64,000 bases of DNA from Burkholderiales bacterium. Lineage in GTDB: Bacteria; Pseudomonadota; Gammaproteobacteria; Burkholderiales; SG8-41. Below, one piece after another: positions 3,655-59,053 of this stretch. The stretch lies in NCBI GenBank assembly GCA_030683105.1, contig JAUXMZ010000016.1:1-64000 (forward strand), read 5' to 3'. The translations under genes and the position numbers were made by a program. Every line of letters begins with the position of its first letter. The first letter of the stretch is position 1. A model generated the notes under the pieces. It saw only the letters and a list, made by a program, of their open reading frames with translations, did no database searches and was not told where the DNA came from.

Positions 3655-3783
3655 AGTGTTGAGTGCTGAGTTTCTGGTGTTGAGTGAAAGATCCCGCATA
3701 TTCGCATTCGAGGACAACTCAACACTCAACACTTAACACTCAACACTCAACACTTAACACTTAACACTCAAAATTTAACACTT
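3655..3783. repeat. Inverted heptamer array between pheA and hisC
   Basis: The left arm (3655-3687) carries GTGTTGA, GTGCTGA and GTGTTGA units. The right arm (3714-3782) carries about nine TCAACAC or TTAACAC heptamers. The spacer of about 26 bases is unrelated sequence. The arms are complementary with mismatches, and the right arm is longer, so part of it stays unpaired. It ends six bases before the hisC ATG. The same heptamer recurs in the left arm of the array before der. Confidence 0.75.
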
Positions 3784-33993: not shown

Positions 33994-34962
33994 ATGAAAA
34001 CGACCTTTCTTGATTTTGAGCAGCCGATCGCCGAGTTGGAGGCGAGGATAGACGAACTGCGCTTCGTGCAGGACGATTCGGCAGTCGACATATCCGAAGA
34101 AATTGCCCGGCTGCAGAAAAAAAGCCAGGCGCTGACCAAGGACATCTACGCCAAGCTCTCCGCATGGCAGATTGCCCAGGTGGCGCGCCACCCGCAGCGG
34201 CCTTATTCGCTTGATTACTTCAACAGCATCTTTACCGGCTTCGAGGAACTGCATGGCGACCGCACGTTTTCCGATGATCCGGCAATCGTTGGCGGCCTGG
34301 CCCGGTTCGGCGGGGAAACCTGCATGGTGATCGGCCACCAGAAGGGGCGCGACACGAAAGAGAAAATAATCAGAAATTTCGGCATGCCCAGACCCGAAGG
34401 CTATCGCAAGGCGTTGCGGCTGATGAAGCTTGCCGAAAAATTCGGCATCCCGGTGTTTACATTCATCGATACCCCGGGTGCTTATCCCGGAGTAGGCGCC
34501 GAGGAGCGCGGCCAGTCCGAGGCGATCGGGCGCAATCTATACGTGATGGCCGAACTCAAGGTCCCGATCATCAGCACCGTGATAGGCGAGGGCGGGTCGG
34601 GAGGCGCGCTGGCGATTGCGGTAAGTGACGTGCTGTTGATGCTGCAGTATTCGACTTATTCGGTGATTTCTCCAGAAGGGTGCGCATCTATCCTGTGGAA
34701 AAGCGCTGATTTTGCACCGGACGCCGCTGAGACGCTGGGCATCACCGCGACTCGTCTCAAGGCGCTTGGACTGATCGATAAAATCGTCAATGAGCCATTA
34801 GGCGGCGCGCATCGCGATCCGGACGCCGTGATGCAAACCCTCAGAAAAACGCTGCAGGATACCTGGCGGCAGCTGAAAGACAAGCCGGTCAAGGAACTGC
34901 TCGCAGACCGTTTCGAGAAAATCGTCGGTTATGGCAAGTTCAAGGAAGTTGCAGCGAAGTAA
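33994..34962 (+). CDS. accA: Acetyl-CoA carboxylase carboxyltransferase subunit alpha
   Basis: 322 residues. The alpha subunit of the carboxyltransferase, which together with AccD moves CO2 from biotin to acetyl-CoA in fatty acid synthesis. It has the N-terminal [15 protein letters not shown] coiled segment, [19 protein letters not shown] and [11 protein letters not shown] typical of AccA. The frame can start at 33967, but the ATG at 33994 gives the usual N-terminus (MKTTFLDFE). The 3' end overlaps tilS by 32 bases. Confidence 0.97.
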
Positions 34963-36328
34963 GCGCGCCCCGACCGACCTCGTCCCCCGCGTCGCAGGTC
35001 GCCTGCGGGAGATCATCGAGCCGGGCGACCGCCTGATCGTGGGCTTGAGCGGGGGAGTCGATTCAGTCGTTTTGCTGGATATGCTATCCCGTATCGCCCA
35101 ACGCCGGCGATTCGTTCTTGCAGCGCTTCATGTCAATCATCAGATCAGCCCGAATGCCGGCCGCTGGGCGACGTTTTGCCGTGCGGCCTGCCGTGCCCGC
35201 GGCATACCCTTGCGGGTGGTCCGCGTGACAGTGAAAGGCGGCGACAGTCTCGAGGCTGCCGCACGCGGAGCGCGGTACGACGCCTTGCTTGCACAACGGG
35301 CTGATTATGTTGTGCTGGCCCACAATCAGGACGATCAGGCCGAGACGCTGCTGCTGCAGCTGCTGCGCGGCGCGGGGGTCAAAGGGCTCGCGGCGATGCC
35401 GCTGGTAAGCAGTAAGCGGTTAACGGTCAGCAGACAGAAAAATGCGCCTCACGCCTTACACCTCACGCCTCGTATCCTTCGCCCTTTGCTCGATGTCCCC
35501 CGGGCCGAGATAGAGGCTTACGCAAGACGGCGGAAACTCGAGTGGATCGAGGACGAGAGCAACGCCGAGATCTATTTCCTGCGCAATTTTCTGCGACACG
35601 AGGTCTTGCCGCAGATTGCCCGGCGTTTTCCCGCCTACCGCACTACGCTGGCGCGTTCGGCGGGCCATTTCGCGGAAGCATCGAAACTGCTCGATGAATT
35701 GGCGGGGCAGGATGGTGCGGAATATTTTTGCAATGGTGCGTTGCAGGTCGCCGGCTTGCGCAAGCTGTCGCGTGCGCGGGCCCGGAATTTACTGCGTTGT
35801 TTCCTGGCCGGCCACGGCGTCATCATGCCCAACGCCGACCGGTTGGAAGAAGCGTTGCGCCAATCGCTGACGGCGAAAGACGACGCGGGGCTGCGCGTGG
35901 ATCTTGGCAGCTGCGAATTGAGGCGATTCGCCCAGGCGCTGCATGTGGTGGAAAAGATGCCCGGACCGAGTTCGAAGTTTTCCCGGGTGTGGCGCGGCGA
36001 GCGCAAACTGGTTCTGCCCGAACTTGGTGGCGTGCTGACGATGGCGAAAGGGCGCGGCACGGCAATCAGCCTGGCCAAGCTTCAGGCGAAGCCGGTCACC
36101 CTGCGCGTGCGCCGCGGTGGCGAACGGCTGCGGCCGGACTGCCGGCGACCGCGGCGCAGCCTGAAAAACCTGCTGCAGGAGGCGGGTGTGCCGCCCTGGC
36201 TGCGCGACAGGCTGCCGTTACTGTTTTGCGGCAGCGCACTAGTATGGGTGCCGGGGATCGGGATCGCATGCGAATTTCAGGCGACATCTGGTGAGGTCTC
36301 GGTGGCGCCGCAGTGGAAGGCGAGCTGA
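34931..36328 (+). CDS. tilS: tRNA(Ile)-lysidine synthase
   Basis: 465 residues. It adds lysine to C34 of tRNA-Ile(CAU) so that it reads AUA. The PP-loop SGGVDS lies near residues 41-46, followed by the N-terminal ATPase domain and TilS substrate-binding and C-terminal domains ([26 protein letters not shown]). The ATG at 34931 overlaps accA by 32 bases, with no clear ribosome-binding site. Oddity: residues about 158-181 ([20 protein letters not shown]) are encoded by a heptamer repeat array inserted in frame between MPLV and the conserved [16 protein letters not shown]. Confidence 0.95.
35404..35471. repeat. Inverted heptamer array inside tilS
   Basis: The left arm (35404-35432) reads GTAAGCA, GTAAGCG, GTTAACG, GTCAGCA. 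The right arm (35446-35471) reads GCCTCAC, GCCTTAC, ACCTCAC, GCCTC, complementary with mismatches around a 13-base loop. It keeps the reading frame and adds about 23 codons. The unit closely matches the array upstream of serC. Confidence 0.72.
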
Positions 36329-51022: not shown

Positions 51023-51029
51023 TTGCGAA

Positions 51030-51127
51030 AGTGTTAAGCGTTGAGTGTTTAGTGTTAAGTGACCGACGGGGCGCGATCATGACCTTTGGCGTTCAACTCA
51101 TCACTCATCACTCATCACTCATCACTG
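51030..51127. repeat. Inverted heptamer array between bamB and der
   Basis: The left arm (51030-51062) reads GTGTTAA, GCGTTGA, GTGTTTA, GTGTTAA. The right arm (51091-51127) is four near-identical ACTCATC heptamers. The arms pair imperfectly around a spacer of about 28 bases. The right arm looks more recently amplified than the left. It ends ten bases before the der ATG. Confidence 0.75.
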
Positions 51128-51137
51128 CGGCGAAGCC

Positions 51138-56332: not shown

Positions 56333-56346
56333 TCGTTGCAGCATCA

Positions 56347-56462
56347 AGGATTCAGGATTCGGGATTCCGCAAAAGCAACAGCCATTCTCTACTATAATCT
56401 TCCCCTGAATCCCGAATCCCGAATCCCGAATCCCGAATCCCGAATCCCGAATCCCGAATCCT
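56347..56462. repeat. Inverted heptamer array between yjeT and hisZ
   Basis: The left arm (56347-56369) reads AGGATTC, AGGATTC, GGGATTC. The right arm (56407-56462) is seven perfect GAATCCC heptamers plus GAATCCT. The spacer of about 37 bases contains a TATAAT (56393-56398). The right arm ends one base before the hisZ ATG. Confidence 0.85.
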
Positions 56463-56463
56463 G

Positions 56464-58949
<2,486 letters not shown>

Positions 58950-58950
58950 C

Positions 58951-59053
58951 TTGTTCCAAGTTTAATGTTCCAGGTTCAAGGTTGGCTAAAACCAATTCGC
59001 TTCGCGAACAGTCGATTTTGAACCTTGAACCTTGAACCTTGAACCTGAACCTG
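58951..59053. repeat. Inverted heptamer array between purA and tRNA-Leu
   Basis: The left arm (58951-58985) reads GTTCCAA, GTTTAAT, GTTCCAG, GTTCAAG, GTTGG. The right arm (59018-59053) is four perfect TTGAACC heptamers and a degenerate tail. The 32-base spacer holds a small TTCGC/GCGAA hairpin. On the minus strand this lies just downstream of the tRNA-Leu gene and might act as its 3' end signal. Confidence 0.8.

Follow-up and report, generated by a model that had tools for sequence, protein, structure and literature searches.

Rickettsia palindromic elements (RPEs), stem-loop elements of 105–146 bp, are found within protein-coding genes and also between genes (PMC2229807; PMC6649704). REPs are palindromes of 20–40 bp with a GTAG or CGTC tag, and RAYTs have been hypothesised to move them; they occur in frame in uvrA, uvrD, tRNA synthetase genes and others; in recB of two Xanthomonas they lie at about the same site, with flexible linkers or loops proposed as their location (PMC3733652). 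In Xanthomonas and Nostoc, G-rich heptamers form dispersed 7-nt tandem repeats, often paired convergently in inverted orientation (70 and 75 such pairs in two Xanthomonas) and some of them intragenic; they form G-quadruplex runs and are under-represented in coding regions (PMC4692102). The heptanucleotide elements of Geobacter metallireducens are tandem heptads within and between genes, with paired opposite-strand sites, and were interpreted as regulator sites or RNA elements (PMC2700814). In the Beggiatoaceae a single fixed heptamer, TAACTGA, occurs between genes, nearly always as direct repeats and mostly just upstream of start codons, with a minority in genes, where copies well inside lie in the stop-free orientation (PMC4679880). 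Heptamer-derived satellites in bacteria have also been mentioned in general terms (PMC6749651).

The array considered here lies in frame within tilS, in a window of 64,000 nt (the whole stretch of DNA that was analysed, contig JAUXMZ010000016.1 of a Burkholderiales bacterium). Its parts are as follows:

34931..36328, + strand: tilS, tRNA(Ile)-lysidine synthase, 465 aa, the host gene (ORF, Pfam, NCBIfam, 1ni5)
35402..35479, + strand: hypervariable linker, residues 158–183 (alignment, linker table, length variation, pLDDT)
35405..35432, + strand: purine-side arm, four heptads GTAAGCA GTAAGCG GTTAACG GTCAGCA (sequence; lag-7 score 15/21)
35433..35444, + strand: spacer GACAGAAAAATG, 12 nt, between the arms (sequence)
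35445..35472, + strand: pyrimidine-side arm, four heptads CGCCTCA CGCCTTA CACCTCA CGCCTCG (sequence; lag-7 score up to 16/21)

As with RPEs, repeat DNA is read in frame inside a conserved gene and is also found between genes. In contrast to the sequences of 105–146 bp with terminal inverted repeats described from Rickettsia, the insert is a 68-nt heptad array in a genome whose named close relatives are betaproteobacteria, and such short arrays of changing sequence recur at one orthologous site across a family of uncultured betaproteobacteria; RPEs are set apart here by their description rather than by comparison with an RPE sequence, and the window's own linker shows no fold excess. Intragenic REPs share with the tilS arrays an in-frame position in conserved genes, a recurrent site and a proposed location in flexible linkers or loops, but the tilS insert has no REP tag, neither GTAG nor CGTC occurring within 35402–35479. 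The words tilS, mesJ and lysidine are absent from the main text of the REP study (PMC3733652). The tilS arrays work like RPEs and intragenic REPs while lacking the defining sequences of these elements that can be tested.

The tilS arrays resemble the convergent heptamers of Xanthomonas, since paired convergent arrays are also formed here, and the heptads of Geobacter metallireducens, which are likewise tandem, lie in and between genes and form opposite-strand pairs. Unlike the Xanthomonas and Nostoc repeats, the heptamers here change from genome to genome and a loop of one gene is their recurrent site, and GGG, as needed for G-quadruplex runs, is absent from 35402–35479. For Geobacter metallireducens, no orthologous in-gene site is described in the available text (PMC2700814), and the Beggiatoaceae repeats, which are similar in being heptameric with a stop-free in-gene minority, differ in being of one fixed heptamer. 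The word "insertion" does not appear in the main text of a 2025 paper on TilS (PMC12514573), and no report of this tilS site was found in searches of open-access literature on repeats in tilS, TilS loops, heptamer repeats and coding palindromes. Nor did these searches turn up any other orthologous coding site that is occupied across a family by heptad arrays of changing type.

The tilS linker of the window and its array

The tilS reading frame is open throughout its 465 codons. The protein matches the Pfam models ATP_bind_3, TilS and TilS_C over their cut-offs and the NCBIfam domain models TilS_N and TilS_C above theirs, with the full-length model PRK10660 below its cut-off; the PP-loop N-domain and the TilS C-terminal domains thus exceed curated cut-offs, as expected of a TilS member. 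Residues S40, G41, G42, D44 and S45 are invariant in an alignment of 16 sequences. The E. coli MesJ/TilS structure 1ni5 is the top match both by sequence and by fold, and the nearest solved folds are TilS structures.

The flanks GL(A/S)AMP and RPLL are conserved across homologues, and the linker between them is not. Among 35 complete family sequences (of 59, the rest having failed a start-motif or length filter), and with the N-terminal 35 residues left aside, the linker is the sole TilS interval whose length varies by more than four residues: it spans 1–49 residues between fixed columns, a range of 48 aa, while every other interval varies by four at most. The linker of E. coli TilS is shorter. 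In an AlphaFold model built from 46 sequences, with a mean pLDDT of 91.6, the value falls to 53 in block 161–170 and to 62 in block 171–180, between short strands at 159–160 and 181–183. As confidence drops between two short strands, the linker is predicted to be a disordered hairpin tip at the surface.

An earlier note, made from the sequence alone, had proposed an in-frame repeat array of intergenic type within tilS, and this is borne out, with a true span of 35405–35472, one base to the right. The residues given there were about 158–181; the array encodes most of residues 158–183. The site does not interrupt a conserved TilS region, as had been supposed, but is the one hypervariable linker of the protein. 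The expectation that these residues would be absent or variable in aligned relatives is confirmed, and that of a surface loop agrees with the model, which places them with low confidence in a loop between the two strands, probably at the surface.

The pyrimidine arm is of inverted type, with a GTGAGGC-like reverse complement. The copies have diverged (the heptamer consensuses of the arms match at 4–5 of 7 positions), which explains why repeat finders miss the array: it is not listed by Tandem Repeats Finder, and a repeat and inverted-repeat search of 35200–35700 found nothing. Four strong heptad arrays are present elsewhere in the window:

3713–3782: strong heptad array, ACTCAAC
51029–51130: strong heptad array, GTTAAGT/ACTCATC
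56340–56467: strong heptad array, GGATTC/GAATCCC
59012–59052: strong heptad array, TTGAACC

None of the four is covered by an open frame extending 40 residues to each side. When periods of 4–15 are compared across the window, 7 is prominent, as is its multiple 14, and no other.

Both arms of the tilS array reach lag-7 scores of 15–16 of 21. With the four strong arrays masked, a score of at least 15, a threshold picked after the array had been seen, occurs at 8 of 63,233 window positions, and all 12 pairs of high-scoring positions 28–70 nt apart fall at the tilS array, the linker being the only place in the masked window with two such blocks. The linker therefore has the 7-nt periodicity of a heptad array, and in a shuffle test of the linker alone (p = 0.0025) lag 7 was the best among lags 4–12. 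That p value fails correction for the 36 linkers tested, so the window copy taken by itself is weak and might be read as chance low-complexity sequence or an assembly artefact. Such a pair was, however, seen in 0 of 120 simulated 63-kb sequences under an order-3 Markov null, the reading frame is open throughout, and strong arrays stand at the same place in separate assemblies, which together make chance or artefact extremely improbable. The window copy is degenerate and old, and its purine arm is free of stops in the tilS frame.

Linker contents and turnover across the family

A search of 74 family genomes (one per species, many of them draft, some with contamination of up to 9%) gave 59 tilS linkers that were counted. 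A plain linker of 42 nt (L029, genome G021) is used in the tree only, and the counts exclude the full-length tilS of G046 and G056 and the fragments of G049, G051 and G060. The tilS fragment of G071 lacks the linker, and eight family genomes gave either no tilS match or a weak paralogue match only. All 59 linkers have a length that is a multiple of three and contain no stop codon. Lag-7 periodicity was found at p < 0.01 in 20 of the 36 linkers tested, which are those of at least 42 nt, the other 23 of the 59 being shorter. The 20 all belong to the 27 linkers of at least 45 nt; the remaining seven of these (L129, L008, L122, L003, L120, L014 and L022) have no array at p < 0.01, nor does any of the nine 42-nt linkers. 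Linkers are short and plain in genera g6, g7 and g9 and mostly long in g1–g4 and g8.

The heptamers, typed by eye, differ between linkers. Pairs comprise GGATCGA with TCAATCC, GGATGAA or GGAAGGC with TCATCCT, and GGAAGGC with CATCACC, and further heptamers are GAGAGGC, GTGAGGC-like, GAAAGGC and GGATGAG. The purine arm precedes the pyrimidine arm in all 12 two-armed linkers, a thirteenth (L113) being merged into one block; some linkers are one arm alone. The idea that the array is a new insertion in this genome is not upheld by this survey, given that significant arrays of differing heptamers are carried by 20 of the 59 linkers, nor is the added peptide simply a random coding of the repeat, with 59 of 59 linkers in frame and stop-free.

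It could be supposed that the insert has a function, its peptide or an mRNA or DNA hairpin tuning TilS activity or tilS expression, as arrays are widespread in the family and 8 of the 36 linkers far surpass shuffled sequences in folding (z from −3.8 to −6.8). The fold is not kept, however, with z above −3.5 in the other 28, including the window's own linker (z = +1.0, no better than shuffles). Neither the sequence nor the length of the peptide is conserved, and array-free genes stand beside array-bearing ones on the tree (L121, L013). A functional insert is hence improbable, and a conserved RNA hairpin in the linker was rejected on the fold scores.

On a tilS tree of 65 rows, from which the linker had been removed, array against none requires six changes with degenerate linkers scored as array, and heptamer type requires 12 changes among 21 typed rows. 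L115 and L117, which belong to one starred clade, have a 12-nt spacer word in common (p = 0.0005) between arms of different heptamers. With up to one mismatch, this word was found in 0 of 40 other array loci, none of which come from the genome of L115, and with two mismatches it was found in 3 of the 40. Because the spacer word is shared and the arms differ, it seems that on at least one occasion arms of one heptamer type gave way to another while the spacer was inherited. In L121, the starred sister of L117, arms and spacer are both missing, with GTAATACGGAA running straight into TTCGATCCTC, seven residues altogether. This is read as precise loss of the array, with never having gained one as a possible alternative. 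L115 (G078:C103) is filed in genus g3 while its TilS groups with g2, for which reason misbinning or transfer is possible.

A simpler history would be a single ancestral insertion in the g1–g4/g8 clade, with later differences due to point mutation and slippage within the array and no copying from outside. The same position and polarity across the tilS arrays, the spacer word common to L115 and L117, the spacers of L004 and L026, which look similar by eye, and the six changes of array against none all agree with it. The difference in heptamer of both arms between L115 and L117 around a kept spacer word does not, and such a history is unlikely.

Dispersed heptads, reading frames and other coding sites

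Heptamer trimers were counted with one mismatch allowed, and with the tilS copy included, in 27 of the 74 family genomes. GGATCGA trimers number 16, 30, 44 and 35 in G004, G005, G013 and G066, which carry tilS arrays of this type, and 0–7 in 22 others; G022 has none despite a GGATCGA-type tilS. The tilS type is associated with the trimers of the genome for GGATCGA (Mann–Whitney p = 0.0018), GGATGAA (0.0068) and GTGAGGC (0.034), and within array-bearing genomes only the values are 0.0040, 0.026 and 0.030. These p values are optimistic, since types were called by eye, 27 of 74 genomes were counted and relatedness was uncorrected, and when all GGATGA-like types are pooled in array-bearing genomes the match is not significant (p = 0.073). 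Reversed-pattern controls gave zero, save for six matches in one genome in the GTGAGGC search.

The window's own genome (G000) holds 22 GTGAGGC trimers, six GGATGAA and no GGATCGA. The 22 fit the pyrimidine arm of the window and were counted for the type of that arm only, the purine arm (GTAAGCG) having diverged. Exceptions are G015, with 225 GTGAGGC matches yet GGATGAG in tilS, and G007 (30) and G085 (40), which have GTGAGGC arrays in the genome and none in tilS; in G042, two of the four GGATGAA matches are the tilS copy. The tilS heptamer thus tends to be one that is dispersed in the same genome, as a correlation with exceptions, and this tendency is a further point against a single ancestral insertion. 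In a sample of 150 genomes from the order, 13 contain GTGAGGC trimers without mismatch, so such arrays are not confined to the window's family.

In 77 array loci from six genomes, every one of the 28 pairs with oppositely oriented arms begins with its purine arm. A twenty-ninth counted pair is excluded, as a run of N makes up its second block. In another five pairs the two arms are of the same kind, and 46 blocks were counted as single. One array is counted in two genomes among the 77: L284 (G005:C189:4800-5600) and L169 (G013:C220:24850-26150), from two genomes of one genus, are the same array with an identical spacer. This spacer is a GC-rich, hairpin-like stretch, and the array could be orthologous and useful for timing turnover. 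The arrays L172 and L170 (G013:C273 and C245) are very long and contain about nine perfect GGATAGA units and some nine GGATCAA units in succession, which suggests recent expansion.

Insertion of ready-made arrays at a preferred tilS target by a transposase element, such as a REP-associated Y1, would account for the two-armed inverted structure, the dispersed copies and the shared position, and Y1_Tnp matches are present in 21 of the 27 genomes, including six matches in G000. Five of the six genomes with no match (G012, G065, G066, G078 and G015) nevertheless carry a tilS array, and one of these, G066, is 98% complete. A Y1 transposase therefore seems not to be required for tilS arrays, and REP/RAYT activity as their sole origin was rejected. 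Spacers also differ between loci, no target duplication is seen by eye, and unrelated repeat families occupy the same linker, so that insertion by such an element has a low probability.

These unrelated repeats are found in tilS loci outside the family list, where 14 of 79 linkers are at least 54 nt long (the 79 include at least one genome twice, as L017 and L039). The linker of L055 contains a palindrome word, ATTCCCGCG...GCGGGAAT, present at 11 places in its genome; those of L051 and L058 contain CCCTCTCCC...GGGAGAGGG, at 28 and 17 genomic places; and those of L060 and L048 contain GTCCTGAGC...GTCGAAGG, at 9 and 12 places. The tilS copy is among the places counted, and reversed control patterns gave no match. 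Palindromes are also held by the linkers of L059 and L063. The presence of unrelated palindromes in the same linker argues that the tolerance of the loop, rather than a heptad-specific target, makes the site recur. The records with the unrelated palindromes of L055, L059, L063, L051 and L058 are those of Gallionella, Sideroxydans and other betaproteobacteria.

At the array loci of G000, with five in-gene ones excluded, only 6 of 54 frames are free of stops in purine arms, against 50 of 54 in pyrimidine arms. The window linker is open in the tilS frame and has three stops in the other two frames, and a filter on reading frame is supported because purine arms elsewhere in this genome are so seldom open. 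At the corresponding array loci of G013, 33 of 69 frames are open in purine arms and 43 of 69 in pyrimidine arms. Stop avoidance as the sole reason for unlike heptamers in the two arms was abandoned as a general explanation, since arrays elsewhere also have unlike arms (L154, L161 and L164); it stands for coding purine arms only.

Of 18 array loci examined in G000, UvrA, ValS and a dipeptide-type ABC ATPase, all conserved genes, each contain one in frame, and another lies at the start of MetF; of 19 examined in G013, one lies within UvrD. These identities are the best NCBIfam matches of gene fragments, and come from seven open frames over arrays that were scanned against families, those of L169, L172, L177 and L185 being left out. 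UvrA has a second recurrent heptad-array linker: arrays of differing heptamers were found at p = 0.0005 in 8 of 20 linkers tested, four of the 20 being from other families of the order. The 20 were drawn from 22 linkers, with G006 and G032 left out, and that of G033 is too short to score. Other UvrA linkers have CTCCCC palindromes, as judged by eye. In G000, two kinds of repeat share one loop, the 186-nt UvrA linker (L152, G000:C20:11500-12800), where TCACGCC/TCACTCC heptads come after a CCCTCTCCC palindrome. The 321-nt UvrA linker of L194 (G006:C207) contains several near-identical in-frame copies of a palindrome-bearing unit. ValS was rejected as a parallel site, as its heptad-like stretch is at an already length-variable linker and was seen, by eye, only in G000 among 28 genomes with both flanks.

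Origin and significance of the tilS arrays

The explanation that we consider probable is that a permissive TilS loop, constrained in frame only, samples repeats which spread, and are replaced, through copying or slippage. Almost any in-frame peptide would be tolerated by this linker at the hairpin tip, which in the family is often occupied by heptad arrays, either as a purine arm, spacer and inverted pyrimidine arm or as a single arm. Arrays may arrive or change through copying from arrays already resident in the genome, by template switching or gap repair, with local slippage presumably adding to this. Most array hits elsewhere in genes would be cleared by selection, whereas a hit in tilS would be nearly neutral, selection at its linker removing the frame-breaking versions only.

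A more tentative extension, possible although rather doubtful, is that heptad arrays evolve in concert, with a copying process that rewrites arrays into whichever heptamer is spreading and leaves the spacer untouched, and with the loops of TilS and UvrA serving as sites where its record is tolerated. If true, this would be a way of spreading repeats that needs no transposase.

To our knowledge, it is still largely open how arrays of short repeats arise, spread and change in bacteria. One orthologous loop, with known flanks and a constraint on frame, present in dozens of genomes, makes the evolution of repeat arrays testable by comparison alone, because it offers different arrays, array-free sisters and an inherited spacer. 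The TilS loop keeps a readable record of repeats appearing, changing and vanishing. It also shows that repeat peptides within a conserved enzyme can change, a point of importance for annotation and a caution against reading such inserts as function.
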